Assembly (NCBI GenBank): GCA_028713125.1
Contig: JAQTOU010000008.1
Location: 1 to 64,000 of the forward strand
Source: Elusimicrobiales bacterium
GTDB lineage: Bacteria; Elusimicrobiota; Elusimicrobia; Elusimicrobiales; UBA9959
Direction of reading: 5' to 3'
Length of the DNA stretch: 64,000 nt
Shown here: piece by piece, positions 1 through 15,419 of the stretch
Layout: every line of letters starts with the position of its first letter
Position numbering within the stretch: position 1 is the first letter of the stretch
The notes under the pieces: generated by a model
What the model was told of the DNA's origin: nothing
The model's input: the letters and a program-made list of their open reading frames with translations, nothing else
Databases searched by the model: none
Made by a program: the position numbers and the translations under genes

Positions 1-720
1 ACTTGGCGCCGAGTGTGGTAACTATCGCCTGGGTGGAAGTTATGATGTTCTGCAGCGAGGAACCATCACCGTTAGGTGCGAGGTAGTTAGTCCCGGCAAC
101 CAAAGGCGCCTGATAATGAGTACCCGCCAGGAAGTTGCCGGAGTCATACTTCGAACCCAGTGTGGTAACTATAGCCTGGGTGGAAGTAATGATGTTCTGC
201 AGCGAGGAACCATCGCCGTTAGGAGCGAGATAGTTAGTCCCGGACACAAAATTGCCGGAGTCATACTTTGAGCCCAGGGTCGTAACGATCGACTGTGTTG
301 AGGTAATGATGTTCTGTAGGGCCGAACCGTCGCCGTTGGGGGCGAGGTAGTTAGTCCCGGCAATCAAAGGCGCCTGATAATGAGTACCCGCCAGGAAGTT
401 GCCGGAATCATACTTCGAACCCAGTGTGGTAACTATAGCCTGGGTGGAAGTAATGATGTTCTGCAGCGAGGAACCATCGCCGTTAGGAGCGAGATAGTTA
501 GTCCCGGACACAAAATTGCCGGAGTCATACTTCGAACCCAGTGTGGTAACTATAGCCTGGGTGGAAGTAATGATGTTCTGTAGAGCTGACCCATCACCGT
601 TGGGCGCGAGATAGTTGTTTCCGGCCACAAAGTTGCCAGCGTCATACTTACCGCTAAGCGTGGTAACGATAACTGCGGTGGAGGTTATGATGTTCTGCAG
701 TCCCGAGCCGTCGCCAGTGG
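1..720 (-). repeat. Coding repeats of 117/147 bp arranged in a 264-bp higher-order unit
   Basis: The anchor string gttctg recurs at 47, 194, 311, 458, 575 and 692, giving spacings of 147, 117, 147, 117 and 117 bp. The units encode 49- or 39-residue repeats (NGDGSSLQNIITSTQAIVTT, then LGSKYDSGNF); the 49-residue form adds a 10-residue THYQAPLIAG-like insert. About 82-270 is nearly identical to 346-534, with about two differences, which indicates recent duplication of a 264-bp (88-residue) block. Confidence 0.9.
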
Positions 721-3700
721 GCGACAGTTTCGTGGAAAGCCCGGAGTCTATGTAAGCCTTAGCCGCTTTCTGGGAAGCTACCTTAACGTCCGAGTTAGTC
801 GCAAGCGCGGTATCGGTATCGAGGTAGGAAGCGGGAAGCTGCGCTACGTTGGAAACATTCCCGAGACCTACCATGGAGGCGGTAACGCCGCCGACAGTGC
901 CGGTGAAGGTAGGGGAAGCCAGGTTGGCCTTAAGGTCCAGCGCAGTCTGCTGCGCGGTAGAGACAGGCTTGTTAGCGTCAGAGGTATTGTCCACATTGCC
1001 AAGACCAATCATGGAGGCCGAGATTCCGCCAACGGTTCCAGTGAAGGTTGGTGAGGCAAGGTTAGCCTTTAGATCAAGGTCAGTCCTCAAAGTGGAAGTA
1101 GCCAGGCGAACATCCTCGTAAACTGCTTTAGCGTTAAGCGCGGTAAGTTGGGCTGACGATACAGGCTTGTTCGCGTCAGAAGTATTATCCACATTGCCAA
1201 GACCGACCATGGAGGAGGTGATGCCGCCAACGGTTCCGGTGAAGGTGGGTGAAGCAAGATTGGCCTTGAGATCGAGGTCAGTCCTCAAAGTTGAAGTAGC
1301 CAGGCGAACATCCTCGTAAACGGCCTTGGCGTTAAGCGCTGTAAGCTGGGCTGAAGAGACAGGCTTGTTAGCGTCGGAGGTATTATCCACATTGCCAAGT
1401 CCGACCATGGAAGCTGAAATTCCGCCGACGGTACCAGTGAAGGTAGGCGAAGCTAGATTAGCTTTAAGATCAATGGCGGTCTGCTGTGGGGTAGACACGG
1501 GTTTGTTCACATCAGAGGTGTTGTTGACATTCCCCAGGCCGACCATGGAGGCGGTGATGCCGCCGACAGTGCCGGTGAAAGTGGGGGAAGCGAGTGAAGC
1601 CTTAAGGTTAAGGTCAGTTCTCAGAGTGGAGGTAGCCAGGCGGACATCCTCGTAAACAGCCTTTGCGTTAAGTGCGGTAAGCTGCGCCGAAGAGACAGGC
1701 TTGTTTGCGTCCGAGGTGTTATCCACATTGCCAAGTCCGACCATGGAGGCTGAGATGCCGCTGACGGTTCCGGTAAAGGTAGGTGAAGCAAGATTAGCTT
1801 TCAGGTCGATCGCGGTCTGCTGCGCTGTAGATATGGGTTTATTCGCATCGGAGGTGTTGTTAACATTCCCAAGGCCTACCATAGAGGCGGTAAGGCCGGT
1901 AAGCGAGGAGCCGTTGAGATTTGATATATATGTGCTGTTAAGAGCCGGTATCCTGCCTGTCGTGTCCACTATCCCGACGTTCCCGGAGCCGGCCGTTATA
2001 CCGCCGGAAACCTTGAGCGCGTCGGCGGCCGTGCTGGTCATGGTCACCTTATCCGTGGCAGCCACCAGCGAAACGGTGCCGCTGCCGCCGCCGGTCCAGG
2101 GGCTGGCGCCGCCGGCCGCTAAAGCCGTCCAGGTCGAGCCGTTCGAATACCGGAGGAGGCCGTCGGAAGTGTCGTAATAGATAGCGCCTGTGCCGGCGTT
2201 GGTGGAGGGGCTGCCGTTAAAGTTTCCTAACCTGAACTGCGAGGCGGAGACCACAACGTTCGTAGAGAACGAGATCGGCCCTCCGGAGGCGGAGCCGAAA
2301 GTCAGCGCGGACGAATAGGCCCCGGAAAGCCTGTTGTCCGGCAAAGTGCCGGAGAGCAAATTGGAGGCGTTGAGGTTGGCAAATTCGGCGGCGACCGTGG
2401 ACAGATTTATCTTGCTGGTATCCAGGCTGGTTATCCAGGCGGGGTTGGCGTAAGCGCCGTTGGTATAAACGCCGTTAGCCACGGAGGCGGCCTGCGCGCC
2501 GGCATCAAGCTTGCCGCCGAGCGCGGCAGTCACGGTCGAGAGATCGATAAGCGCGGGCGAAACTGTCGCCGCGTTGGATAGTCTTCCTGAGAGCGCGGCG
2601 GTGACGGTGGAGAGGTCGATCTTGCTTGTGGCCAGGCTGGTGATCCAGGCGGGATCGGAATAGGAGCCGTTGCTGTAGATGCCGTTGGAAACGCTTGCGG
2701 CGTTACCGAGTATGCTGATGTTATACGAGCCGGGTTGCACGCTGTCAGGATAAACGGCGCTGACGGCGACGGAGGACGCTATAACGTCGGAGGAAAGCGG
2801 GCCGGCCGTTATCTGCCCGGCGCTTATGCCGCCGGCGGTTATCCGGCCGGAGTTGTCCACCGTGAACCTGTCGACCCCGCCTTCCTGGAAGGTCATGAAA
2901 TTCCCGCCGCCGGTGTCGTTGACGTAAAGAGAGGCGTTGCCGGAGGCGTCATTGAGCGGCGAGGCAGGGGCAAGGGTGAAAGTCCCTGTAGTTCCGCCCT
3001 GGTCAGGTCCGCAGATCCAGAGCGTGTTCGCGATGTTCCTGCGCAAAACTTCGTCGGGACCGCAGTTGTTCAGCCCGATCTTCGCGAAAGAAAGCGCGCC
3101 GTCCTGTATGCTTGCGGCATAAACGCTGTTTACCGCCAGGGAAGAGGCGACTACGGCGGGCCCCAGCTTTCCGGAGGAAATGTTCGCAGCGGTTATGCCG
3201 GTCAAGGCGGCGCCGCTTCCGTTAGTGGAAAGTTTTCCGGCTAAAGCAGCGGTGACGGTGGAGAGATCGACCAGGGCCGTAGGCACGGTAACGGTGCTGG
3301 AGAGTCTTTCTGCCAGGCCCGAGCTTAAAGCGGCGGCATCGGCCTTCGTCGAAAGTCCGGTGTCGATATAGGTCTTGATCGCTTTCTGCGAAGGCACTTT
3401 TACGTCGGAGTTGGCGGACATGGTTCCATCCGTATCCAGGGAGGAAGCCGTTAGCTGCGCTACATTCGAGACATTGCCGAGCCCTATCTGCGCGGCGGTG
3501 ATGCCGGTGAGGGCGGAGCCGTTCCCGGCGATATCCAGTTTGCCGGCCAGCGCCGCGGCAACTGTGGACAGGTCGACTAAATTAGCCGGCACGGCGACCG
3601 TGTTGGATAATTTTCCTGCCAGGCCCAGGGTCAAAGCGCTTGCAGAGGCTTTCCCGGCCAGCGCCGCCGTCACCGTGGAGAGGTCGATAAGGTCGGACGG

Positions 3701-5356
3701 CACGGTGGCGGTATTCGACAGCCTTTCCGCCAGCGCCGCCGTCACGGTGGAGAGATCTATAAGATTGGAAGGTATGGGCGCCGCGGCTGATATCTTTCCG
3801 GCCAGCGCCGCAGTGACGGTAGAAAGGTCGACCAGGTTAGCCGGGACAGGGGCCGTGTTGGATAATTTACCCGCCAGGGCCAGGGTCAAAGCGCTCGTGG
3901 TGGCTTTTCCGGCCAGCGCGGTTGTAACGGTGGAAAGGTCTATCAAACCCGGCGGGACTCCGGCGGTATTTGATAATTTGCCGGCCAGTCCTACGGTTAA
4001 AGAGCCTGTCGTGGCTTTCCCGGCCAGCGCCGCGGTAATGGTGGAAAGGTCGATCAGGCCGGCGGGGACGGTGGCGCTGTTTGACAGCACTGAGGCCGAG
4101 TCGGCCTTAAGCGCGAGCGCAGCGGCGACCGTGGAAAGGTCAACCAGCCCCTGCGGTATCGATGCGCCGCCGGATATTTTCCCGTCCAGCGCCGCGGTGA
4201 TGGTCGAGAAGTCCAGCAAAGAGGGGGGGACAGTGGCGGCATTCGAAAGTTTACCGTCGAGAACCGCGGTCACGGTCGAAAGATCTATCAGGGAGGAGGG
4301 GACGGTTTGCGAATTTGAAAGCTTCCCGGCCAGCGCCGCGGTTACCGTGGACAAGTCTATCTTGCTTGCGGCCAGTCCCGTCAGCCAGGGCGGATTATTA
4401 TACGTGGCGGTGGTGTAGACCCCGTTAGTAACGGTACCCGCGTTCCCGAATATGCCTATATTATAAATCCCTGACTGCAGGTTGGCTGGATACACCGCGC
4501 CGGCCGCCAGCGAAGAAACAATTACCCCTGAATTCAGGCTTCCCGCCTGGACCTGGGCGGCAGGGAGCAGGACGCCGGAGACAAATGTCCCAGGCTGGAC
4601 GGTAGCGGCGCTCACGCTGCCCGCCGCTACATTGATAAGCTGCGAGCCGTCGATGGCCGGCAGTTTGCCGGAAGCGTCCACCAGCACAAGCTGCCCCGCG
4701 CCGTTGAAAGAGTTTCCGCGTTTCGTGACCGAGGAGGTGTCCAGCGAGGAATTTGGCACGGCGTTCGCGAGCTTGGTGGCGTCGAGAAAGCCCGCCGCGG
4801 TAGTTACCAGGTTCCCCTGCAGGTTTATCCGCCCGGAGCTCAGGTAGACGTCGGATGAGATCGTAACCTGGCCGAGGAAAGCAGTCTGCCCGGAGAAGGT
4901 TTTGGCGCCGGAGATCGCCTGCGCCGTGTTGGTGGTGACCAGGGTGTCATAAGCCTTGCCGTTGAAGGTCTGGGCGTTCATGGCGTAAGGGACGGACAGC
5001 AGGCGCTGCCTGGGCGCAAGGGTGGTTCCGTTCACCGTTATTTCGAGGTAGCGCTGCGCCGAGGCGAAGACAGTCTCGGCGATAGGCGTGACGGAGCCCA
5101 GCTCCGCCGTAAGCACGCCGTTCGCCACGGTCACTCCAAGCTGGGTCTCGTTCCAGAGAGGAGAGCCGCCGGTCGGCGTTGCGTATATGGCGAAGTCGAA
5201 GTTGTAGCTGCCTGCCAGCGGGTTGTTAAGGTTATCCGTCAGGCGTCCCTGGAAACTTATTATCGAAGGGGTGGTCTGTGCGGCCGCAGTAAGGTTAAAA
5301 CTTAGGGCGCAGGCTGCGGCCAGCGCTAAAAAGCCGAATATTCTTTTAGTGTTCAT
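1..5356 (-). CDS. Giant secreted modular repeat protein (3' end beyond window)
   Basis: One frame is open on the minus strand from the ATG at 5356 to the window edge, about 1785 codons without a stop, so the C-terminus is missing. Residues 1-27 form a Sec signal peptide (MNTKRIFGFLALAAACALSF, then cleavage near AAAQ). Residues 28-145 match the N-terminal module common in bacterial tail-fiber-like secreted proteins: SFQGRLTD, GSYNFDFAIY, YLEITVNG, then RQRLLSVPYAMNA. The rest consists of three classes of degenerate repeats (listed separately), rich in Thr, Ser, Ala and Asn and almost free of Cys. Its ATG overlaps the kinase TGA (ATGA), so translation is coupled to the sensor upstream. Proteins of this build often end in a Peptidase_S74 self-cleaving chaperone, but that end cannot be seen here. 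A surface fibre or adhesin role is inference. Confidence 0.85.
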   Translation of the reverse strand, partial: MNTKRIFGFLALAAACALSFNLTAAAQTTPSIISFQGRLTDNLNNPLAGSYNFDFAIYATPTGGSPLWNETQLGVTVANGVLTAELGSVTPIAETVFASAQRYLEITVNGTTLAPRQRLLSVPYAMNAQTFNGKAYDTLVTTNTAQAISGAKTFSGQTAFLGQVTISSDVYLSSGRINLQGNLVTTAAGFLDATKLANAVPNSSLDTSSVTKRGNSFNGAGQLVLVDASGKLPAIDGSQLINVAAGSVSAATVQPGTFVSGVLLPAAQVQAGSLNSGVIVSSLAAGAVYPANLQSGIYNIGIFGNAGTVTNGVYTTATYNNPPWLTGLAASKIDLSTVTAALAGKLSNSQTVPSSLIDLSTVTAVLDGKLSNAATVPPSLLDFSTITAALDGKISGGASIPQGLVDLSTVAAALALKADSASVLSNSATVPAGLIDLSTITAALAGKATTGSLTVGLAGKLSNTAGVPPGLIDLSTVTTALAGKATTSALTLALAGKLSNTAPVPANLVDLSTVTAALAGKISAAAPIPSNLIDLSTVTAALAERLSNTATVPSDLIDLSTVTAALAGKASASALTLGLAGKLSNTVAVPANLVDLSTVAAALAGKLDIAGNGSALTGITAAQIGLGNVSNVAQLTASSLDTDGTMSANSDVKVPSQKAIKTYIDTGLSTKADAAALSSGLAERLSSTVTVPTALVDLSTVTAALAGKLSTNGSGAALTGITAANISSGKLGPAVVASSLAVNSVYAASIQDGALSFAKIGLNNCGPDEVLRRNIANTLWICGPDQGGTTGTFTLAPASPLNDASGNASLYVNDTGGGNFMTFQEGGVDRFTVDNSGRITAGGISAGQITAGPLSSDVIASSVAVSAVYPDSVQPGSYNISILGNAASVSNGIYSNGSYSDPAWITSLATSKIDLSTVTAALSGRLSNAATVSPALIDLSTVTAALGGKLDAGAQAASVANGVYTNGAYANPAWITSLDTSKINLSTVAAEFANLNASNLLSGTLPDNRLSGAYSSALTFGSASGGPISFSTNVVVSASQFRLGNFNGSPSTNAGTGAIYYDTSDGLLRYSNGSTWTALAAGGASPWTGGGSGTVSLVAATDKVTMTSTAADALKVSGGITAGSGNVGIVDTTGRIPALNSTYISNLNGSSLTGLTASMVGLGNVNNTSDANKPISTAQQTAIDLKANLASPTFTGTVSGISASMVGLGNVDNTSDANKPVSSAQLTALNAKAVYEDVRLATSTLRTDLNLKASLASPTFTGTVGGITASMVGLGNVNNTSDVNKPVSTPQQTAIDLKANLASPTFTGTVGGISASMVGLGNVDNTSDANKPVSSAQLTALNAKAVYEDVRLATSTLRTDLDLKANLASPTFTGTVGGITSSMVGLGNVDNTSDANKPVSSAQLTALNAKAVYEDVRLATSTLRTDLDLKANLASPTFTGTVGGISASMIGLGNVDNTSDANKPVSTAQQTALDLKANLASPTFTGTVGGVTASMVGLGNVSNVAQLPASYLDTDTALATNSDVKVASQKAAKAYIDSGLSTKLSPTGDGSGLQNIITSTAVIVTTLSGKYDAGNFVAGNNYLAPNGDGSALQNIITSTQAIVTTLGSKYDSGNFVSGTNYLAPNGDGSSLQNIITSTQAIVTTLGSKYDSGNFLAGTHYQAPLIAGTNYLAPNGDGSALQNIITSTQSIVTTLGSKYDSGNFVSGTNYLAPNGDGSSLQNIITSTQAIVTTLGSKYDSGNFLAGTHYQAPLVAGTNYLAPNGDGSSLQNIITSTQAIVTTLGAK
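850..1900 (-). repeat. Coding repeats of 138/198 bp (46/66 residues)
   Basis: The ccatgg-type anchor recurs at 871, 1009, 1207, 1405, 1543, 1741 and 1879, giving spacings of 138, 198, 198, 138, 198 and 138 bp. Each unit encodes ASMVGLGNVDNTSDANKPVS followed by LKASLASPTFTGTVGGI. The longer form adds 20 residues around AVYEDVRLATSTLRTDL. The GLGNV/NTSDANKP wording is typical of phage tail-fibre and bacterial fibre repeats. Copies are more diverged than those in the 1-720 block. Confidence 0.88.
3230..4370 (-). repeat. Array of short LxDLSTVTAALAGK repeats
   Basis: Roughly a dozen or more copies of a 23-24-residue unit, VPxxLIDLSTVTAALAGKLS with small variations, run from about residue 330 to 705 of the giant protein. 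Some copies are lengthened to about 39 residues by an ALTLxLAGK insert. Isolated copies recur near 2510-2660. The hydrophobic/polar spacing suggests a beta-solenoid or trimeric fibre shaft, by inference only. Confidence 0.8.
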
Positions 5357-6708
5357 ATAAGTTCTCCCGAAACCCCTTTCGGCAGCGAAACGGTGAAAGT
5401 GGAACCTTTGCCTTTTTCGCTCTCAACCGAGATCTTTCCGCGGTGAAGCTCTACCGCCTGCCGGGTTATGGCGAGCCCCAGGCCCGAGCCGGGGATCTTT
5501 GTCCTTTTCCCGTCGGCGCCGCGCGTCCTGTAAAACTTCGTGAAAAGCTGCTCCTGGTCCTCTTTGCTTATGCCGTAGCCGGTATCGGTTACCGAAAACT
5601 CCACCGCGCCTTCCTTCTCGCGCGCCATTACCGTAATCGAGCCGCGCTCAGGCGTGTATTTCAGAGCGTTCGAGACCAGATTGATTATGACCCTGCGCAG
5701 GAGCTTCTTGTCGGCCATCAGCGTCAGGCTTTTTTCCGGGACCAAAAGTTTAAGGTCTATATGATTGGAGCGGGCGACGGGTCCGTAAAGGCTTATTACC
5801 TCGCGCGTCATATCCGCGAGATCCACCATTTCCGGGTCCAGGTCGGGCTTGGCCGAGGTCCTGAATAATTCAAGGGCATTGGAAAGGATGAGTTCCATCT
5901 GCTCGACGGCGTTGGCCATGGTTTCATAAGCCTGGAAGGTGTCCTGTATCGTGGAAACGCGCCTTGGATCGCGCAACAGGGCTATATAGGCCTTAAGGCC
6001 GGCCAGCGGGTTGTTAAGTTCGTGCGTGAGCGTGCTCAGCAGGTCTTCCTTGGCTCTTACGGATTCCCGGATATTTCCCGCCATGCGGTTAAAGGCGAGG
6101 CCGAGCGTGGAGATCTCGTCGGAGCCCGCCACGGCCACGGAAGTTTCCAGCGCGCCATTTCCCAGCTTGTCCGCCGCCTCTGAAAGCTCCGAAACCGGCT
6201 TGGCCAGTTTGCGGCTCATCAGCAGGGAGCCGGCAAACCCGAGGCCGAGCCCGATCAGCGCCACGCTCAGGACCGCGGTCAGGGTTTCATTCCTTCTCAT
6301 GCGCAGCCTGTCCTCCCAGGCCTTTTTCGAAAAGCCGACCTGTACGGTCACTGATTCGGCCGGCTGGGAGGATCGGGAATTCAAAGTCTCGGTTATCGTA
6401 TGGTAATCCAGCTCCCCTTTAACTTCCCCGAGGATAGTGGTATAGCCGCTCTTGGTCACCAGGCAGACGTCTATTTCATTGGACTGCCTGATCTTGAAGC
6501 GGAGATAGCTTAAAAGCATCAGGTCGTCGTGCAGGCTGAGGGATTCCTTCGCTTCCCTCGTAATGTTGTCCATCAGGGTAGACACCCTTTCCCGTTCAAG
6601 CCGCGCTACCTGGCGGTGCTCAAGCGCCACCAGGGTAATTATCATGCCGCCCACCACCGAAGCGATGATGGCCGTCATAAGAAGCATTATCCGGGTCTGT
6701 ATCTTCAT
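5353..6708 (-). CDS. Membrane sensor histidine kinase (HAMP-HisKA-HATPase)
   Basis: This 451-residue inner-membrane kinase has a first membrane segment at residues 7-29, a periplasmic sensor region of about 110 residues, a second membrane segment at about 143-164, a HAMP linker to about 215, and a dimerisation/phosphoacceptor domain with the H-box THELNNPLAG (His229). The ATP-binding domain has N-box NLVSNALKYTP, G1 DTGYGI and G2 GSGLGLAI. It starts at the ATG 4 bases after the upstream stop, preceded by a GAGGT ribosome site, and ends in an ATGA overlap with the giant repeat protein. The likely partner is the CheY-like protein at the head of the same operon; that pairing is inferred from position. 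The ligand is unknown. Confidence 0.93.
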   Translation of the reverse strand: MKIQTRIMLLMTAIIASVVGGMIITLVALEHRQVARLERERVSTLMDNITREAKESLSLHDDLMLLSYLRFKIRQSNEIDVCLVTKSGYTTILGEVKGELDYHTITETLNSRSSQPAESVTVQVGFSKKAWEDRLRMRRNETLTAVLSVALIGLGLGFAGSLLMSRKLAKPVSELSEAADKLGNGALETSVAVAGSDEISTLGLAFNRMAGNIRESVRAKEDLLSTLTHELNNPLAGLKAYIALLRDPRRVSTIQDTFQAYETMANAVEQMELILSNALELFRTSAKPDLDPEMVDLADMTREVISLYGPVARSNHIDLKLLVPEKSLTLMADKKLLRRVIINLVSNALKYTPERGSITVMAREKEGAVEFSVTDTGYGISKEDQEQLFTKFYRTRGADGKRTKIPGSGLGLAITRQAVELHRGKISVESEKGKGSTFTVSLPKGVSGELI

Positions 6709-6712
6709 AAAA

Positions 6713-8689
6713 TTACCTCAGCTCCCGCTGTATGCGCTTAATAGCGTTGGCGGCTGGCACATTGCCCGGGTCGCCCTCAAGCACTTTATTGAATACCGCT
6801 CTCGCTTTTTCAAGCTCTCCGGCGCTGTAAAGGTCCAGGCCTTCCCTGTAAAGTTTCTGCGCCTGGGCGCCGTCCGTTTTCGCGGCTTCCGGCTTCGCGG
6901 TTACGGTGACGGCGGGCTTGCGCTTCTGCTGCTTGATAACTTTCTCCACTGAGTCGAGCTGTGAATTTATCATGGCCTGCCTCGCCCGGCTCGGCTCGAG
7001 CGTATAGGCCTTTTTCCAGGCTTCGATCGACTTCTTGTAGCTGCCAAGGGCGAAATGAGCTATGCCCAGGTTCTCGAGCGCCGTCAGGTTCCCTGGCTGG
7101 TTCTTCAGGACCGCTTCGCTCATGTAGACCGCCTCTTCATAGCGGGAATTCTCGATAGCCTCCGCCGCCATCGTCAGCAGGCTGTCGACTTTTATCGCGG
7201 CTTCGGGCGTCAGTTCCGTCTTCCTGCTCTTCAGGCCGGTTCTCTGCTCGAGCTGGGCCAGGTAGGCGCCAGTGTTCCCGGCGCCGGGCCGCAGGCTCAG
7301 GGCGTTGCCGGCCTGGTCGACGGCTTCCTCGTCGGAGCCGTTGAGGTAGGCTATGGCGGAGCGGTACAGGGCCGATTGCACCGCGTCGGTTTTATAGGAG
7401 TCAAGGCGGCCGAGCCGGGCGGCCGCGAAATCCAGGCGGTCCTGGTGCCTGAGCAGCTGGGCGTCCTGCGGGTTAAGCTCCAGCGCCTTTGAAAGTTCTT
7501 CGGAGGCCTCCGGGAAGCGGCCCTCGGTTTCCATGAAGCGGATGCGGTTCAGGCGTTCGTTCACGGCTGTATTCAGCGCGGGGGAAACCAGGCTGGCAGC
7601 TTTAAGCTCCGGGGCTTTGCCGGTCTTCAGCCTGCGCATCGCCTCGAGCACCAGCTTAACCGATTCCTCCTCCTCTTTGGCGGGCCCGAAGCGTATGGAG
7701 AAGCTCAGGCGGTGGGAGCCGGAGGTGGAAGCGATGCTGTTTATCGGCATGGCGAAGCCGTAGTCGACGCCTACGCGGCCCGACCTGTAGGAAAGTCCCG
7801 CCGTAGCCTGGCGGAATTCGCGGCTGCCCACGCTAAGGGCGGCGCGGACGCCGATATTGCCGACCAGCAGCCAGGGGAACCATCTTTCCATGGCCATGGT
7901 AACCCTGTGGTCGCGGGTCCCTGTAGGGGCGGTGAGGGTTTCGTACTGGGCCACTATATTGGAAAGCAGGCTGTTATAGCTCAGGCCGAGTTTCGCGTGC
8001 AGCGGCAGCTTGTCCGTATCGGCGGATGAAAAAGCCATATTGGGCTGTGTCAGGTGCATCAGCTCCAGGCCGGCGGTGTAATTCCTGTTAAGCTTGTACA
8101 GCAGGCCGAGATCGGCGTCGAAAGCGTTTACCGCGCTTTTCCCTGAAAGCACCGGGTCGGCCACTCCGGTGGCGGTCATACCGCTGTAGGCGCTGGAGGC
8201 TTCCGGCAGGCTGCCGAAAGAGCGGCGCAGGTTCTTGAGGTTGAGCCCCCAGTAGAAGTCGTACAGGCCCAGGCTCGCGGGGGCTTCCCTGCCGTAGGAA
8301 AGATAGAAGGCCTGCTCGCTGTAAAAGCTCCCGTCTATGCTGAAGCTCTGCACGCCCGCGGCGATGGTGCCCTTGTCGTACATCAGCGGGTGCGCGTAGC
8401 CGAGGAAGGAGGTGTTGATGCCGGAGCCGTCGGAGAGGCCGGCGAGGTGCTGGGTATGCGACGCGGCCAGTTCGGGCCGCTGGAGCTGCGCCAGCCCGGC
8501 GGGGTTGTAGTAGATCGCGTAGACGTCGTCGGCGATCGCGGTGAAGGCGTTGCCCAGGCCGGGGCCGCGGGCGCCGGCGCCCAGGTCCTCGAAAGCGGCG
8601 CGGGCGGTTCCGGCGAAAAGGAGGAGGGCGGCCAGGAGGGCCGTTCCAAAGGCTTTAGCAAGCCGTTCTTTTCCGCCGTTCATGTTCAT
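6713..8689 (-). CDS. PorV/PorQ-like outer-membrane protein with C-terminal TPR repeats
   Basis: About 658 residues starting at the ATG at 8689, chosen because it makes an ATGA overlap with the upstream gene, has GGTGAT before it, and puts a signal peptide (KAFGTALLAALLLFAGTARA) at the N-terminus. Residues after cleavage, FEDLGAGARGPGLGNAFTAI then DDVYAIYYNPAGLA, are the hallmark of the UPF0164/PorV-PorQ barrel family, which in Bacteroidota acts with type IX secretion. The barrel spans roughly residues 30-340. The C-terminal half has several TPR units (for example AIEAWKKAYTLEPSRA) and a final TPR pair. The barrel-TPR fusion and its position directly after a protein with a T9SS-like C-terminal domain suggest a role in export or anchoring of surface proteins; this is inference. 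Confidence 0.82.
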   Translation of the reverse strand: MNMNGGKERLAKAFGTALLAALLLFAGTARAAFEDLGAGARGPGLGNAFTAIADDVYAIYYNPAGLAQLQRPELAASHTQHLAGLSDGSGINTSFLGYAHPLMYDKGTIAAGVQSFSIDGSFYSEQAFYLSYGREAPASLGLYDFYWGLNLKNLRRSFGSLPEASSAYSGMTATGVADPVLSGKSAVNAFDADLGLLYKLNRNYTAGLELMHLTQPNMAFSSADTDKLPLHAKLGLSYNSLLSNIVAQYETLTAPTGTRDHRVTMAMERWFPWLLVGNIGVRAALSVGSREFRQATAGLSYRSGRVGVDYGFAMPINSIASTSGSHRLSFSIRFGPAKEEEESVKLVLEAMRRLKTGKAPELKAASLVSPALNTAVNERLNRIRFMETEGRFPEASEELSKALELNPQDAQLLRHQDRLDFAAARLGRLDSYKTDAVQSALYRSAIAYLNGSDEEAVDQAGNALSLRPGAGNTGAYLAQLEQRTGLKSRKTELTPEAAIKVDSLLTMAAEAIENSRYEEAVYMSEAVLKNQPGNLTALENLGIAHFALGSYKKSIEAWKKAYTLEPSRARQAMINSQLDSVEKVIKQQKRKPAVTVTAKPEAAKTDGAQAQKLYREGLDLYSAGELEKARAVFNKVLEGDPGNVPAANAIKRIQRELR

Positions 8690-10953
8690 CTTATCACCAG
8701 GAGCGTTCCGTTGAAAGTTTTTTCTTCGGCCCTTATCTGGTACACATAAGCCCCGCCGGAGACCGGGCGTCCGTTGGCCTTGCCGTCCCACTGCAGGGTA
8801 TTGTCCGTCGGGCCGGGGGCCATAGCGGCGACGAAAGCGCCGCTCAGGTCGAAGATCTTGCCGGAGAAGGCTGAGTCGCGCGGGTTGTCAAAAATAAAGA
8901 CCGCGGTATCGTTCAGCCCGTCGCCGTTGGGGGTTATCGCCCTGTTGGTCAGCCCGGAAATGTCGAAATGCACTCCCAGGTCGCGGTAGATTCCGCGTAT
9001 CTGGTAGTTGCCGGTCATGGCCGTCTTTACGCTGACCAGCTGGTTGACCGTGTCCACTTTGCCGTAGAGCTTCACGTATTTCTCGCCGTTGTTCCAGTAG
9101 AGGCCGAGGCGCTGGGCCGCGTCGCCCGCCGAGATCTGCCCCTGCGGGCTGAAGGCCGAGGGGGTGATATTGTTGCCGGAAACCTCGTAGCGCACCGCGA
9201 CGGAAAGCCCGGGGCGGGAGAACTTGAAGCCGTCCAGGACCTCGCCGGTGTGGTTCTTTACCGCTTCGAAGCGCACGGAGCTGAAGATGTTCTTCGGCGC
9301 GTCGGAGCCTTCGTCCACGGCGCGTATCAGGACGTCGGAGCCGGAGGGATTGTTGGCCGCGAGCAGCTCGCCGCTGAGGTCCGACGGGATCTCAAGCCTC
9401 GCCACCTGGTCGGGGGAGAAGACGTACATGCCCTGGGCGGTGTCCACGCCCATCGCGCTTTCTTCCGCGCCCAGCGAGTCTATCGCCGAGACCCTGTAGA
9501 TATAGGCGGGGTCGCCCGGGTTTACCGCTTCGGTATAGGTCTGCGCGTTTATCGGCAGGGTGGAGACGGTTATCCAGGAGGGCGCGCCCACCGAGGAGGA
9601 CTTCTCTATGCGGTAGTGCGACAGCTCGGCCGCCATCGGGGAGCCGGCCGCCCTGAACCCGGAGCCGTCGGTGTTGGTCGTGACCGGCTTCCAGCTGAGG
9701 GTCACCGCCGTGCGGGCGGGATTCAGCGCGGCGGTAAGGCCGGCGGGAGCCATCGGCGGCAGGTCCAGGAATACTTCGGTGGAAACCCCGACCGAGTAGA
9801 GCGCGCCGGTATACTTGGCCATGAGGTGGTAGAAGAAAGTCGTGTCCAGCGTAAGGCCGGAATCGTTAAGCGAAGCCGCGGCCTGCGTGGATTTCACTAC
9901 GGAGCCGTCGGCCAGGATCTGGCCGGGGGAGACTTCCGTGCCGTCGGCGATCCCGGCGGAGGCGGCGCTGGTGCTGAGCATGACCACTATGCCCTCCGGC
10001 GAGGGGCCCGACGGGTTCAGCCAGGTGAGGGAAATGGCCCGCGACCGGGCATTGCCGGCGGCGCTCAGGTCGGAGACGCCCGGGAGGCAGGTCCCGGACC
10101 GGGTAGTAGTTGTTATCAGCGTGGTGAAATTCTTTTCCCCCTGCCAGTTGAGGCTGGCTACCCTGAAGAAGTAGCTGGTGAGGGGGGAAAGCCCGCTTAT
10201 CGTCAGGCTGACCTGCAGGCCGTTGGGCGTGGAGGCGGTCTTTATCGAGCCGCCAGGAGAAAGTATGCCGAAGCTGGTAGTGGAAGCGTCGGAGCTGTAG
10301 CCGGCGGCGCCGCCGGAGGGAAGGAGCCAGCTGATAGTGGCTTTGCAGGCCGAGACCGCCGAGAAGTACGGGTTTACGGGCAGGTCGGAGATGGTGGATT
10401 CAGCGCTCAGGGCCGAGTTCGCGGCCATTACTTTCTCCGCGTCGCCCAGGTAGATCCTGGTGTAATAGGTGGTATTGGGCTGAAGCCCTTCTATAGCCAG
10501 CTGCTGGGCCTGCCCGGGAACGACCGAGGTGGAAAATTCGGTTTTGAATACGGTAGGCCCGAAAGCGTGTGCCTGGTCGCTGGAATAATCCAGGCGGTAG
10601 ACCCCGTTGCCCACGGAGCCAAGGAAGCCGTCGGCCCCGGGCGCCGCCCAGGCGAGTTCGAGCGTGCCTGTGCTCTTTGAGACGGCGGTTATCGAAACCA
10701 CGCTGCCTGGCTGCGCCGCCAGCTTTATGTAGCCGGGGTTCACCGAGAAGCCGGCGGCGGAGACGCTCGAGAACGCGGCTTCGCCGATGGAAGTGTTAAG
10801 CGAGAAGCCGCCGCCGGAGCTCACCTGCCCCTGGGAGTTGCCGGCCCAGCGCGCCACGTTCATTGAACCGCCGCTCATTTCCCCGACGGCTTCCGCCCGC
10901 TGCCAGTTGGCGGCGAGCGAGAAAGCGAGGAAGAACAGGGCGGCTCTTTTCAT
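8686..10953 (-). CDS. Secreted fibronectin type III surface protein with FlgD-like/T9SS-like C-terminal domain
   Basis: This 755-residue exported protein has an N-terminal signal peptide (MKRAALFFLAFSLAANW). It carries about three to four fibronectin-III-like domains between residues 80 and 470, seen as repeated strings such as LAWAAPGADG, GLQPNTTYYTRIYLG, GLSPLTSYFFRVAS and LSWKPVTTN. The last 95 residues contain ITPNGDGLNDTAVFIF, IFDLSGAFVAAM, WDGKANGRPVSGGAYVYQI, the gliding-motility-associated/FlgD-Ig-like module found at the C-terminus of many type IX secretion substrates. It overlaps the PorV-like gene by 4 bases, which fits a cargo-receptor pair. The actual ligand or surface role is not deducible. 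Confidence 0.82.
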   Translation of the reverse strand: MKRAALFFLAFSLAANWQRAEAVGEMSGGSMNVARWAGNSQGQVSSGGGFSLNTSIGEAAFSSVSAAGFSVNPGYIKLAAQPGSVVSITAVSKSTGTLELAWAAPGADGFLGSVGNGVYRLDYSSDQAHAFGPTVFKTEFSTSVVPGQAQQLAIEGLQPNTTYYTRIYLGDAEKVMAANSALSAESTISDLPVNPYFSAVSACKATISWLLPSGGAAGYSSDASTTSFGILSPGGSIKTASTPNGLQVSLTISGLSPLTSYFFRVASLNWQGEKNFTTLITTTTRSGTCLPGVSDLSAAGNARSRAISLTWLNPSGPSPEGIVVMLSTSAASAGIADGTEVSPGQILADGSVVKSTQAAASLNDSGLTLDTTFFYHLMAKYTGALYSVGVSTEVFLDLPPMAPAGLTAALNPARTAVTLSWKPVTTNTDGSGFRAAGSPMAAELSHYRIEKSSSVGAPSWITVSTLPINAQTYTEAVNPGDPAYIYRVSAIDSLGAEESAMGVDTAQGMYVFSPDQVARLEIPSDLSGELLAANNPSGSDVLIRAVDEGSDAPKNIFSSVRFEAVKNHTGEVLDGFKFSRPGLSVAVRYEVSGNNITPSAFSPQGQISAGDAAQRLGLYWNNGEKYVKLYGKVDTVNQLVSVKTAMTGNYQIRGIYRDLGVHFDISGLTNRAITPNGDGLNDTAVFIFDNPRDSAFSGKIFDLSGAFVAAMAPGPTDNTLQWDGKANGRPVSGGAYVYQIRAEEKTFNGTLLVIR

Positions 10954-10962
10954 GGTTTTAGC

Positions 10963-11343
10963 CTAAAGTTTGAAGCTCCGCTTAAGGATCCCGCTCACGC
11001 GGGCTACAAGTTCGTCGGTTATGAAGGGCTTGAGCACATAATCCTCTGCGCCGTTCTCTATCCCTTGCACTTTATTATCTACGGAGGTGGCGTCCCCTGT
11101 AAGCAGTATTACAGGGATGTGTTTTATCCGCGGGTTTTCCTTCATCCTGCGGCACAGGTCCAGGCCGGTGCCGTCAGGCAGGTTAACGTCAAGAATAATT
11201 ATGTCGGGCAATTCTTTGAGGCAGGCCTTAAATCCGTCCTCGGCGGTTTTCGCATTCTTCACCTCATATTTTTCGGCGGTAAAGATGCGGTTAAGTATCG
11301 AGGACATAATGTGGTCATCGTCTATTACAAGCATTTTGTTCAT
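10963..11343 (-). CDS. CheY-like single-domain response regulator
   Basis: This 126-residue receiver domain has no output domain. The acidic pair is in MLVIDDDH, the phospho-acceptor is Asp52 in IIILDVNLPDG, the switch Thr is in VILLTGDATS, and the conserved Lys is in YVLKPF. It is the first gene of the minus-strand operon, 9 bases ahead of the fibronectin-III protein, with GGGAGAA before its ATG. With no DNA-binding domain it must act by protein contact, perhaps with the kinase three genes downstream (inferred). Confidence 0.93.
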   Translation of the reverse strand: MNKMLVIDDDHIMSSILNRIFTAEKYEVKNAKTAEDGFKACLKELPDIIILDVNLPDGTGLDLCRRMKENPRIKHIPVILLTGDATSVDNKVQGIENGAEDYVLKPFITDELVARVSGILKRSFKL

Positions 11344-11416
11344 AAAATTCTCCCAAGTGTATTTATAACCTCAGTTGCTTTATGAAAATAGTATACAGAA
11401 CGGATTTTGCAGTCTT

Positions 11417-11455
11417 TTGTCATTCTTTTGACATTTTCTTGTCAAAATCTTGTCA
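11417..11455 (+). promoter_or_regulatory. Four direct TTGTCA boxes at exact 11-bp spacing (Pho-box-like operator)
   Basis: TTGTCA (11417), TTGACA (11428), TTGTCA (11439) and TTGTCA (11450) repeat with a strict 11-bp period, separated by AT-rich 5-bp spacers. Direct repeats of this type and spacing are how OmpR/PhoB-family winged-helix regulators bind DNA side by side on one helix face. The boxes read toward the OmpR-type gene at 11476 and end 8 bp before its -10 region. This suggests autoregulation or control by another PhoB-like protein. Confidence 0.75.
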
Positions 11456-11469
11456 CGGTTTGATATAAT
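11439..11469 (+). promoter_or_regulatory. Promoter with extended -10 (TGATATAAT), probably leaderless
   Basis: A perfect TATAAT lies at 11464-11469, preceded by TG at 11461-11462. TTGTCA at 11439-11444 would be a -35 with a 19-bp spacer and is also the third operator box. Start of transcription about 7 bases past the -10 falls on the ATG at 11476, so the mRNA would have essentially no leader; no ribosome site is visible. Confidence 0.65.
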
Positions 11470-11475
11470 TCCGGA

Positions 11476-12186
11476 ATGGCTTACAACTTATGTCTGGCCG
11501 GCAATGCCGAAGCTGCAAAAAATATGCAGCAGGTGGGGGATGAGTTTGCCGTAGAGTCTTTCGGTACCGCTCATCAGTTGCTTGAAAGGCTGCGCTCCGG
11601 GTCGGCCAATCTTCTTCTGCTTGATTCCGACCTGCCTGATATGCCGGGAATGGAGCTGCTGCGCGTGATACGGGAAACCGCCTACGGCAGGGAGCTTCCC
11701 GTGATCTTCATCTCTCAGAACAAGTCGAAAGAGGCCCTGGCCGCGGCTTTCGGGCTTGGAGTAGACGACTTTATTCAGAAGCCTTTCGATATAAGGGAGC
11801 TCCGGGTGCGTATCCGGGCCGTGCTCCGCCGCCGTTTCGAGGCCATGGAGCACTGGGGGGGGCCGCTTGCCCTGGGCGGGATCGAGATCGATCCCAGCCA
11901 GCGGCGCTGCCTCGTGGACGGGATAAGGGTAAATTTGCGGCCGCTTGAATTCGCGGTGCTGGAAATCCTGATGCTTAAGGCGGGCCGGGTTTTGAGCCGG
12001 AACTACCTGCTTAACAATATCTGGAACTCGACCACCTCGGCCGATATCCGCGCGGTCGACACGGTGGTCAGCCGCCTGCGCAAGGCGCTGGGCAGGCATG
12101 CTAAAATGATCGAGACGGTTTCAAAGATGGGATACTACTTTGCTCCGCCTCCGGAGAACGGGCGGAAAAGCGGCTCCAGGGAGTGA
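11476..12186 (+). CDS. OmpR/PhoB-type response regulator with atypical receiver
   Basis: The protein has 236 residues. Residues 1-120 are a receiver domain with Asp50 (LLLLDSDLPDMPG), Ser in VIFISQNKS and Lys in DDFIQKPFD. The N-terminal acidic pair that binds magnesium is absent: the first strand reads MAYNLCLAGNAEAAK. Residues 130-225 form a trans_reg_C winged helix (LRPLEFAVLEILM, then SRNYLLNNIW, AVDTVVSRLRKALG, IETVSKMGYYF). It may therefore act without classical phosphorylation. Four direct repeats fitting this protein family sit just upstream. The next gene starts 5 bases after its stop. Confidence 0.9.
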   Translation: MAYNLCLAGNAEAAKNMQQVGDEFAVESFGTAHQLLERLRSGSANLLLLDSDLPDMPGMELLRVIRETAYGRELPVIFISQNKSKEALAAAFGLGVDDFIQKPFDIRELRVRIRAVLRRRFEAMEHWGGPLALGGIEIDPSQRRCLVDGIRVNLRPLEFAVLEILMLKAGRVLSRNYLLNNIWNSTTSADIRAVDTVVSRLRKALGRHAKMIETVSKMGYYFAPPPENGRKSGSRE

Positions 12187-12191
12187 CGACT

Positions 12192-14306
12192 ATGCAGGAC
12201 CCAAAAAGCGAAAAAAACGAGGTCGGGGCCGGCTTTGAAAAAGCGGTCGAGCCTATCCACGGCATCATAGACCGCATCCACGCGCTTCACCACCCGGACT
12301 GGGAGCAGAAAAACGAAGATATCAGCTCGATAAAGGCCGCGCTCGCGCGCTATTCCTCCGACCTGGAGCATTTGAAATACAGGTATGACGCCCGCGGCGC
12401 GGAGCTGGAAAAATTAAAAGCCCAGTACATGGAACTGGAACATAAATTCCTGATGCGGCCGGACGCAATGAGGCGCGCCGGGGAAATGGAAGTGACCGAG
12501 CTGGTAAAACAGAAGCACGACCTTGTGGCCCTGGAGAATTCCCTCGAAAGGGACAGGCATGAACTGGGAAGGGAGAAAGAAAGGCTCGCCGCCCGGGCGG
12601 AGGGGACGGTTTCGGCGCGGCAGGCGGAACTTGAAAAGGAGTACGCCGCCAAAGCCGCCCTGCTGGCCAGCCGCGACGAGAAATGCGCGCTCAGGGAGAA
12701 GGGCGTCGCCGAGGCGGAAAAACATTTCAAGGAACAGGTGGAAGAGGCGCGCAGGGCTACCGCCGAAGAGCTTTCCGCTTCGTTCGAGCATGAAAGAGCG
12801 GCTTTCCGCAAAGAAAAAACTATTTTAGCGGCCGACCTGGAGAAGTGGAGAGTCAGGGCCGAAGAATTGCTCTCCCAGCAGGCTTTAGCGAGGAAAGCGG
12901 CGGAAGATCTTGAAAGCGCGGCGGAAAACGCGAAAGAAGCCGCAGCGGAAGCCCGGCAGAAATGCAAGCTGGCCGAAATGGAAAAAGACGCTTTGGCCGG
13001 AGAATCCGGGAAGTGGAAGCTGAAGGCCGAGGAATCGCTGGCCCAGCTCGCCCAGGCCAGGACGGCGGCCGCCGGACTTGAAAGCGCCCTTGAATCCTCT
13101 AAGGAGGCCGCCGCGGAAGCAAGGCAGAAAACCAGGCTGGCTGAAATGGAAAAAGCGGCCCTGCTCGAACGGCTGGAAGAATGGGATGCTAAAGGCCCGG
13201 AGTTCGATAAATGGCGCTCTGAATTATCGGCCCGCGAGGAAGCCTGCAGGCGCCTCGAGGAGCAAGCGCGCGCCGAGGCGCAGCCGCTGCGCGAGCGGAT
13301 AGCCGCCCTGGAGGACGGGCTGCGGCAGGAAAAGCGCGAGGCCGAAAAATGGCGTCTTAAGTCCGAAGAATCCTTGTCCCGGTCGGCCGGCTCTAAACAG
13401 GCGGCTGAAGACCTTGAAAGCCAAAAGGAGGCCTTGAACGAGGCCGCGGCGGAGGCAAGGCAGAGGACGAAAATGGCCGAGATGGAAAGAACGGCCGCTC
13501 TCAAACGCCTTGAAGAATGGGAAAAAAAGGGGCCGGAGCTGGAGAAATGGCGGTCGGAACTCGCGGCCCGCGAGGAAAACTGCAAGCGCATAGAGGAAAA
13601 CGCGGGAAAAGAAGCGCAGCCTCTCCGGGACCGCATTGCGGCTCTTGAGATCCTTGCGCGGGAAAATGAAAAGCTGGCCGCGCAGGCTAAATCACGCTAT
13701 GCGATCGAGATCCCTGAATTCGAAGAGAAGTTCAAGCTGGAGAGCGCCCGCGCCGCTTCATTGAAAGAGGAGCTTAAAGGCGCCAGGGAGCACCTGGACA
13801 AAGTGCTGAAGGACTGCGCCGCCCTGGAAGAGGAGCTGGTCCTGGCCAGGGAAAAGCACCTTAAAACCGAAACGGAAAAAGACGCCGAGCGGTCAAAAAA
13901 AATGGAAAGCCAGCTCGCGGAAATAGAGCAGAAAGAAAAAGAGATGGAGGAAGCCTGGACCCGCAGGCACAAAGCGCTGGAGGCCGAGCAAAAAGGCTAT
14001 CACGCGGAGTTCGAGAAAAGGCAGCTGGCTATTCTCGAGGACCTGCGCGCGAATTCGGCCGGCATCGACAAGCTTTACGCGCAGAAAGAGGCTAAACTGG
14101 TGGAGCTTAACAAGCGGCTTATAGATGAGTTCCAGGACAGGGAGGCGAAGGCCCGGACGGTGGAGGAAGAGCTCCGCGGACAGGCCGCGAACCTGGCCGC
14201 GTCCGCGGGGGAACTCGCGAGGGATTATGAAGCTAAAAGGTCGGAACTGGAAGGCCTGAAGCGGAAGCTCCTCGCCGAGATCGCCGGCCAGAAGCCGCAG
14301 AATTAG
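12192..14306 (+). CDS. Long cytoplasmic coiled-coil protein
   Basis: About 704 residues starting at the ATG at 12192; a GTG at 12183 overlaps the previous stop but has the GGGAG ribosome site on top of it, so ATG fits better. The sequence is highly charged (Glu, Lys, Arg, Ala), almost without Pro or Gly, and forms heptad coiled coil from about residue 55 to the end. A block of about 110 residues is internally duplicated: AEMEKxALLERLEEW.KGPE, KWRSELxAREE, then EAQPLRERIAALE occurs at about 320-380 and again at 430-490. No enzymatic motif is visible. Such proteins often act as spacers or cytoskeletal scaffolds; the role here is unknown. It sits between an OmpR-type regulator and a membrane-anchored protein, all closely spaced. 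Confidence 0.85.
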   Translation: MQDPKSEKNEVGAGFEKAVEPIHGIIDRIHALHHPDWEQKNEDISSIKAALARYSSDLEHLKYRYDARGAELEKLKAQYMELEHKFLMRPDAMRRAGEMEVTELVKQKHDLVALENSLERDRHELGREKERLAARAEGTVSARQAELEKEYAAKAALLASRDEKCALREKGVAEAEKHFKEQVEEARRATAEELSASFEHERAAFRKEKTILAADLEKWRVRAEELLSQQALARKAAEDLESAAENAKEAAAEARQKCKLAEMEKDALAGESGKWKLKAEESLAQLAQARTAAAGLESALESSKEAAAEARQKTRLAEMEKAALLERLEEWDAKGPEFDKWRSELSAREEACRRLEEQARAEAQPLRERIAALEDGLRQEKREAEKWRLKSEESLSRSAGSKQAAEDLESQKEALNEAAAEARQRTKMAEMERTAALKRLEEWEKKGPELEKWRSELAAREENCKRIEENAGKEAQPLRDRIAALEILARENEKLAAQAKSRYAIEIPEFEEKFKLESARAASLKEELKGAREHLDKVLKDCAALEEELVLAREKHLKTETEKDAERSKKMESQLAEIEQKEKEMEEAWTRRHKALEAEQKGYHAEFEKRQLAILEDLRANSAGIDKLYAQKEAKLVELNKRLIDEFQDREAKARTVEEELRGQAANLAASAGELARDYEAKRSELEGLKRKLLAEIAGQKPQN

Positions 14307-14309
14307 AAA

Positions 14310-15419
14310 ATGGGCTTTAAAGAAAGGAAAAAAAAGACGGTTAAAGAAGGCAAGGACGCGCTGCTGGAAAAATATTCCGCGCTCCTTGCCGGGGTAAAGC
14401 TGCGCCCTCCCGCGCTGCCGCGCGTCCTGGCGGATCTCCCCGGGAAAGAGGCGCGCAAATATCCGGTCCTGCAGGAGCTGGCGGCGGCGCGGCAGGATAT
14501 TCAGGATGAATTCTCGAAGCGGCAGCTGGAGCTGCTGGATATAAAATCCAGGATAGAGGAAGATATCGCGGCCGTTTCAAAGAGCCGGCCGGCGCAGCCG
14601 GCTCCGGAGCTTTTCAAGGAGCCCGCCGCCGCCGGCGTCCCGGCGGAGCGGGCGGCGCAGCCGGAGTCGGAGCCGGAGTTGCAGCCGGGCCCCGGCCCGC
14701 GCCGCTTTCCGGCGTGGTTTATCGCCGCTGCCGCCGTTTGCGCTGCCGTCTTCGGGCTGTACAAGTATTACGCCGGCCTGGATAAATTTTCGCTGCAGCT
14801 GCCTTTCAGCAGCGCGGTCGGCCTTTGTCTCGACCCCGAAGGCGGGCGTGTTTTCCTCGTCGACCCGCAAAGGCAGGTGCTGCTTACGGTCGTGATCGCT
14901 GAAAATCGTATAAAAGCTATGCAGTCTTTTCCTTCGGAGGGCCTTAAGGCGCTCGCTTTCGACGGTTCATCCTTCTGGAGCTCCGACGGGGATGTCATAC
15001 GGCGGCACGGCCCGGCCGGGGGCTATGCCGCGCTCTCCGCTTACAAGCCGTGGCAGAAGGTTTCCTTCCTCTGCTGGGACGGGAACCATCTCTGGGCCGC
15101 CTCCTCGGCGGGCGAATTGACGCGCTATATAGCGGGCCAGGCCCTGAAGCCGGAAGATATCTTCTCTATGCCTAAAACCGAGACCGTAGGCATTTCCATC
15201 TCGGGCGAGAAGCTCTGGCTGCTCGACCCCGAGAGCGGGAAATTGTCCTCCTACAGGCTGGGCCTTAAGCCGGAGCCGCTGAACTCGGCCGACGTAAAAG
15301 CCCTTCTGCCGCGCGGCGCCGTAACGGGCTTCGCCATAAACGGGGAATATCTCTGGGTCCTGACCGCGGCCCCGGCGGAATTGTCGCGCATAAATCTTAA
15401 GAACGTCAAGTTATATTGA
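14310..15419 (+). CDS. Single-pass membrane protein with extracytoplasmic propeller-like domain
   Basis: The protein has 369 residues. An N-terminal cytoplasmic region with a short coil (about 50-92) is followed by an acidic Pro/Glu linker, one membrane segment at about 134-152 (AWFIAAAAVCAAVFGLYKYY), and a C-terminal domain of about 210 residues. In that domain, strands with the pattern LCLDPEGGRVFLVD, ALAFDGSSFWSSDG, FLCWDGNHLWAASS, GISISGEKLWLLD and GFAINGEYLWVLT repeat about every 45 residues, like NHL/WD-type propeller blades. It starts 3 bases after the coiled-coil gene, suggesting the two work together; no family was recognised. Confidence 0.8.
   Translation: MGFKERKKKTVKEGKDALLEKYSALLAGVKLRPPALPRVLADLPGKEARKYPVLQELAAARQDIQDEFSKRQLELLDIKSRIEEDIAAVSKSRPAQPAPELFKEPAAAGVPAERAAQPESEPELQPGPGPRRFPAWFIAAAAVCAAVFGLYKYYAGLDKFSLQLPFSSAVGLCLDPEGGRVFLVDPQRQVLLTVVIAENRIKAMQSFPSEGLKALAFDGSSFWSSDGDVIRRHGPAGGYAALSAYKPWQKVSFLCWDGNHLWAASSAGELTRYIAGQALKPEDIFSMPKTETVGISISGEKLWLLDPESGKLSSYRLGLKPEPLNSADVKALLPRGAVTGFAINGEYLWVLTAAPAELSRINLKNVKLY

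Follow-up and report, generated by a model that had tools for sequence, protein, structure and literature searches.

A conserved array of five phased half-sites as a candidate bidirectional operator of a pseudo-receiver OmpR/PhoB-type regulator in Elusimicrobiota

Stand-alone receiver and OmpR-type regulator genes lie divergently in the 64,000-nucleotide stretch of Elusimicrobiales DNA analysed here (referred to below as the window), the former on the minus strand (10963-11343) and the latter on the plus strand (from 11476). The intergenic region between them carries five head-to-tail half-sites that together occupy positions 11405-11455, and this array is framed by two -10 hexamers, neither of which has a normally spaced -35. 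The array is probably a local, bidirectional, activating operator of the presumably phosphorylation-independent OmpR/PhoB-type regulator encoded at 11476. At the sequence level, this reading draws on the array itself, its conservation, its restriction to this gene, its fixed spacing to both -10 hexamers and the lost phosphorylation pocket of the regulator. To our knowledge, Elusimicrobiota is a phylum for which little regulatory knowledge exists, and the array provides a concrete candidate operator, together with a likely regulator, for a module of surface proteins that many of its members possess.

The features of the region are as follows; G047 is a congeneric genome that carries a second, extra array.

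2-5356, minus strand: large repetitive surface protein of at least 1785 aa, running off the window; its G047 counterpart has an array of its own
5353-6708, minus strand: HAMP-containing sensor histidine kinase (domain searches)
6713-8791, minus strand: TPR-containing outer-membrane protein resembling PorP/SprF and PorV, with an uncertain start codon (NCBIfam matches below cut-offs)
8686-10953, minus strand: surface protein with fn3 domains and a C-terminal T9SS-type (CHU_C / type B) sorting-like domain (domain searches)
10963-11343, minus strand: stand-alone receiver protein (REC) with all catalytic residues (Pfam Response_reg; canonical pocket)
11390-11395, minus strand: predicted -10 (TATACT) for the divergent operon of REC and surface-protein genes, at a distance of 9 bp from box 0
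11405-11411, plus strand: box 0, TTTTGCA, in register (four orthologs have these letters, the fifth has GTTTTCA and the extra G047 array has TTTTGCG)
11417-11422, plus strand: box 1, TTGTCA (sequence, shuffles, ortholog comparison)
11428-11433, plus strand: box 2, TTGACA (sequence, shuffles, ortholog comparison)
11439-11444, plus strand: box 3, TTGTCA, the same letters in all six arrays
11450-11455, plus strand: box 4, TTGTCA in five of six arrays and TTGGCA in the sixth
11461-11469, plus strand: regulator promoter, extended -10 (TG A TATAAT), 8 bp beyond box 4 and 6 bp ahead of the ATG
11476-12186, plus strand: OmpR/PhoB-type regulator with a degenerate receiver and a winged helix (Trans_reg_C) (Pfam; PhoB nearest)

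Position and phasing of the array

In the window sequence, boxes 1 to 4 start at 11417, 11428, 11439 and 11450 and read TTGTCA, TTGACA, TTGTCA and TTGTCA, that is, they follow each other in exact 11-bp steps with a single base differing among the four hexamers. The original prediction had described precisely this period and had placed the boxes between two divergent regulator genes, and both points are borne out by the sequence and the gene annotation. Its count of four half-sites was incomplete, the fifth and weakest (box 0) being found one 11-bp step upstream of box 1, in register and conserved. Half-sites are thus repeated head-to-tail at about 11 bp, as in an operator of a dimerizing regulator of the PhoB/PhoP type, to which the phased direct repeats had been likened; the larger number of half-sites, which had been considered an oddity, is not unusual for the OmpR/PhoB family (PMC4415409, PMC3264566).

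No match to three consecutive boxes was found in 100 dinucleotide shuffles of the window. When the complete 3.48-Mb genome was scanned for three or more phased hexamers, as had been proposed, the array region at 11405-11455 was the only such place: perfect and two-mismatch matches were confined to it, and the sole other match was a single three-mismatch site on another contig. Neither the motif scan nor a profile search revealed a further such array in this genome, and two-box matches elsewhere were no commoner than those of a reversed-pattern control. A structured RNA leader was also considered and dropped, the segment 11300-11520 having no match in Rfam.

Close orthologs of the 11476 regulator, with 88, 82, 82 and 73% identity, are encoded by four further congeneric genomes. 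Five in-register half-sites are kept upstream of all five orthologs, the window included, although these orthologs are mutually related and the co-occurrences do not count as independent. Loss of the phasing in close relatives with both genes had been named in advance as an outcome that would speak against the original prediction, and the phasing is retained at all five genus-level orthologs.

Two promoters flanking the array

The -10 on the regulator side is of the extended type (TGATATAAT). It is separated from box 4 by 8, 8, 8, 8 and 7 bp in the five orthologs and from the start codon by 6-7 bp, and the regulator mRNA is probably leaderless, as had been proposed; given that TATAAT ends 6 bp before the ATG in the window this proposal was sound, the start site itself being a predicted one. 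Box 3, which had been singled out as the best -35, is indeed the best match but lies 19 bp from TATAAT, outside the normal spacing of a -35. The left operon is faced by another -10, the minus-strand hexamer TATACT at 11395-11390, which had gone unmentioned. Similar minus-strand hexamers occur exactly 9 bp from box 0 in five of five orthologs and at both extra arrays; they match TATAAT at 4-6 of 6 positions, and in two of the five orthologs at only four. There is no -35 at 17 bp from the divergent TATACT, and no sigma-70 pair with 16-18 bp spacing is present in the region, which rules out a sigma-70 promoter with a proper -35.

In the arrangement that we favour, the pseudo-receiver product of the 11476 gene would bind the five head-to-tail half-sites and take over the -35 contact of RNA polymerase, thereby activating both promoters. 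The right-hand target would be the regulator's own leaderless promoter, with the last half-site 8 bp from the extended -10, and the left-hand target would be the operon encoding REC, the CHU_C protein, the PorP-TPR protein, the histidine kinase and the giant repeat protein, with the first half-site 9 bp from TATACT. The outcome would be a local positive-feedback switch for surface proteins. Both the binding of the array by this regulator and the activating rather than repressing sense of the binding are what we infer from the sequence features listed above. Activation in both directions is favoured because the HP1043 and Bacillus subtilis PhoP activators occupy the same position, with a site just upstream of the -10 that replaces the -35 (PMC5253667). 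Against it stands the polarity of direct repeats, since one array that activates in both directions is less usual, and occupancy of positions -21 to -70 could instead repress.

The main rival to two-way activation is negative autoregulation, in which the bound regulator would cover and shut its own promoter and activate the divergent surface-protein operon only. This alternative, which we consider rather unlikely, is consistent with the location of box 4 between the -35 and -10 positions of the regulator promoter, with the ability of an extended -10 to work without a -35, and with the extra array in front of the G047 surface-protein gene, which serves the divergent-type orientation only. However, the lack of a well-spaced -35 in the regulator promoter fits dependence on an activator, and the well-studied atypical family member that binds in the same position is a presumed activator (PMC5253667).

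The regulator and its receiver pocket

The 11476 protein has the OmpR/PhoB-type architecture, a receiver followed by a winged helix, with both Pfam matches (PF00072 and PF00486) above cut-off. Its receiver lacks the phosphorylatable pocket (DD, D, T/S, K), the acidic pair being replaced by A-G-N. The acidic pair is non-canonical in nearly all of 33 aligned regulator homologs, and D, T/S and K are each lost in several of them. The protein therefore fits the pseudo-receiver group as defined in PMC12632262 and would act independently of phosphorylation; the simplest reading of its signalling is a concentration-driven action with local feedback. In the stand-alone receiver encoded on the other side of the array, by comparison, (E/D)D, D, T and K are intact in essentially all of the 29 sequences examined.

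With this combination, the locus lends itself to the question of whether a pseudo-receiver protein can be steered by a separate receiver. We tentatively propose, as an idea more likely wrong than right, a split response regulator: the kinase would phosphorylate the canonical stand-alone receiver, which would in turn control the pseudo-receiver DNA-binding protein by contact, one polar array of five half-sites would drive both directions, and paralogous modules would be kept apart by half-site letters (TTGTCA vs TGTAAC). For such a split regulator, the REC need not be encoded at the locus, because relatives without a linked REC exist.

In favor of the 11476 protein as the binder, the nearest solved structure for its DNA-binding domain is that of PhoB (E 4e-14), which recognizes the half-site CTGTCAT in E. 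coli (PMC4415409). PhoB Arg201, which contacts guanine (PMC3973317, PMC3264566), is kept in the 11476 protein according to the alignment, and the other base contacts are changed (Thr194 to Ala, Val197 to Thr and Arg219 to Ser). Because Arg201 is the sole base-contacting residue retained, the match between boxes and protein is not predictable from PhoB.

Conservation and genomic restriction of the array

In pairwise comparison of the five ortholog arrays, the boxes are 89% identical and the linkers 55%. For a motif-free comparison, the self-similarity of the 200 bp upstream of the regulator gene was measured at a given lag in four groups of homologs, with 200 shuffle sets for each. At lag 11, the five orthologs gave z 5.7, the homologs from two other genera of the family 4.8, those of a second subfamily 6.8, and a set of 18 further homologs within the class 8.8; the observed value was reached by none of the 200 shuffle sets in any group, and lag 11 was the outlier in all four, with lags 10 and 12 at background level. 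Throughout this Elusimicrobiota class, most homologs have a strong signal in their upstream region, and only a few homologs outside the genus are without a clear array. Outside the genus-level orthologs, the letters drift while the 11-bp phase persists (e.g. TGTAACA TGTAACA, or TGTGACA TTTGTCC TATGACC TGTAACC TGTAACA). Conservation of the array in related bacteria suggests that it switches on both the regulator and the surface genes. One regulator family with a constant phase, drifting letters and paralogs within one genome also forms a natural series for following the change of DNA specificity in pseudo-receiver OmpR-type proteins. In a single-protein search of the genome contigs, one close ortholog was retrieved (an Elusimicrobiota MAG, L063, 88% identity, apparently the G049 contig), the other matches being distant OmpR-type proteins.

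An array profile built from six arrays (those of the five orthologs and the extra one in G047) was searched in 32 congeneric genomes. Matches with E <= 1.1e-11 were found beside the five orthologs and at the second array in G047 only; the six source arrays match their own profile by construction, and the informative part is the absence of others, the best match beyond them (in G054, E 0.01) covering 22 of 51 positions. The extra G047 array (4242-4292) comprises five boxes, precedes the gene for the large repetitive surface protein belonging to this locus, and has a 9-bp gap to a perfect TATAAT and no regulator-side -10.

This distribution bears on the identity of the bound protein. Another OmpR-type regulator, for example a PhoB-type phosphate regulator recognizing a Pho-box-like site, might be envisaged given that TTGTCA resembles the Escherichia coli PhoB box CTGTCAT (PMC4415409) and that dozens of OmpR-type paralogs are encoded. 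We regard this as quite improbable: the array occurs only where an ortholog of 11476 occurs among the 32 congeneric genomes, the phased repeats track the homologs of this regulator across the class despite the drift of their letters, and the genome itself lacks the further sites that a Pho regulon would need. Since OmpR-type paralogs were found in every genome searched and the array lies beside the orthologs only, a conserved paralog such as PhoB is an unlikely binder. A Pho regulon site in particular is ruled out by the genome scans, in which the site did not recur and two-box sites stayed at the control level. Finally, a chance or structural AT-rich repeat (a bending element or a relic of replication slippage) with no dedicated regulator, to which the T-rich appearance of the intergenic region by eye might point, is hardly credible in view of the zero shuffle matches, the prominence of lag 11 over lags 10 and 12, the conservation of boxes against changed linkers, and the two arrays of G047, which differ far more in linkers than in boxes.

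Two further sites were noted. A weak array-like site in another congeneric genome (G051:C34:20416-20466, or L203 1501-1551; E 0.08) precedes a 56-codon frame with a 9-bp gap to TATACT, and is a possible third target. The genomes G049, G051 and G047 (L060, L061 and L062) carry a second, paralogous version of the module (45% identity), in which the 11-bp repeats are of the TGTAAC type instead of TTGTCA.

Comparison with known regulators

Several elements of the proposed operator are already known, namely 11-bp direct repeats, multiple half-sites, autoregulated atypical OmpR-type regulators and replacement of the -35. A close parallel is HP1043 (HsrA) of Helicobacter pylori, an orphan OmpR/PhoB-type regulator with a degenerate, phosphorylation-independent receiver, as predicted for 11476; its six-base half-sites are 5 bp apart (TTTAAG-N5-TTTAAG), like the boxes described here, its site takes the place of the -35 immediately ahead of the -10, in some promoters with an extended TG, and its own promoter is among those bound, in that case on the non-coding strand (PMC5253667). 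HP1043 differs in using two half-sites at many targets genome-wide, whereas here five half-sites occur in one local region, next to a divergent stand-alone receiver and a surface-protein operon. ChxR of Chlamydia trachomatis, an atypical OmpR/PhoB regulator for which phosphorylation is not needed, likewise occupies several sites in its own promoter, made up of direct repeats with 5-bp linkers, but its half-site is TCGATCA / TAGATAA, its predicted regulon is broader, and in the parts of the ChxR report consulted its sites are not described as one continuous array common to two promoters (PMC3960148).

Among canonical regulators, the Pho boxes bound by PhoB/PhoP in E. coli, B. subtilis and Streptomyces resemble the present array in their 11-nt direct repeat units, head-to-tail binding, variable number of units and location upstream of the -10 (PMC4415409, PMC5253667). 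Those regulators are phosphorylated and control global regulons, whereas there is no sign in this genome of a Pho regulon around the array. The KdpE site also consists of 6-bp half-sites with a 5-bp AT-rich linker (PMC3264566), but only two of them, bound by a canonical phosphorylated regulator, in contrast to five and a pseudo-receiver here. What is not described in the literature consulted is a conserved five-half-site array between two -10 hexamers that is associated, as here in Elusimicrobiota, with a pseudo-receiver regulator, a canonical receiver and an operon for surface proteins.

The surface-protein operon and neighboring genes

The left operon (REC, the fn3/CHU_C protein, the PorP/PorV-like TPR protein and the histidine kinase) keeps its synteny with the regulator in the related loci that were compared, and in the window the start of the giant repeat protein overlaps the stop codon of the kinase gene. 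Neither G047 nor G051 has the REC gene at the locus; there the regulator is immediately opposed by the CHU_C operon, with the array still in place, and the closest REC homologs of these genomes are encoded at unlinked loci without such an array. The REC gene can thus be ruled out as the target of the array, which is retained between the regulator and the CHU_C operon. In G047, the surface-protein gene is separated from the kinase and has its own five-box array. Control of the surface-protein operon to the left, originally raised as a possibility, gains strength at the sequence level from the synteny, the REC-less loci and this second array.

Some neighboring genes deserve separate mention. The GTG start listed for the PorP/TPR frame (6713-8791) implies an overlap of about 100 bp with the end of the CHU_C gene, and the true start probably lies further in. 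A search for SprA_N, a marker of the T9SS translocon, gave no matches, and its controls were equally silent. Downstream of the regulator, a coiled-coil protein and a second protein without a Pfam match are encoded in the same direction (12183-15419, plus strand); G051 and G047 have neither in this place, the coiled-coil protein has an ortholog in G049, and both have orthologs in G029. Within the left operon (6713-10953), a CHU_C / T9SS type B sorting-like protein adjoins a PorP/SprF- and PorV-like TPR protein, here in an Elusimicrobiota genome.
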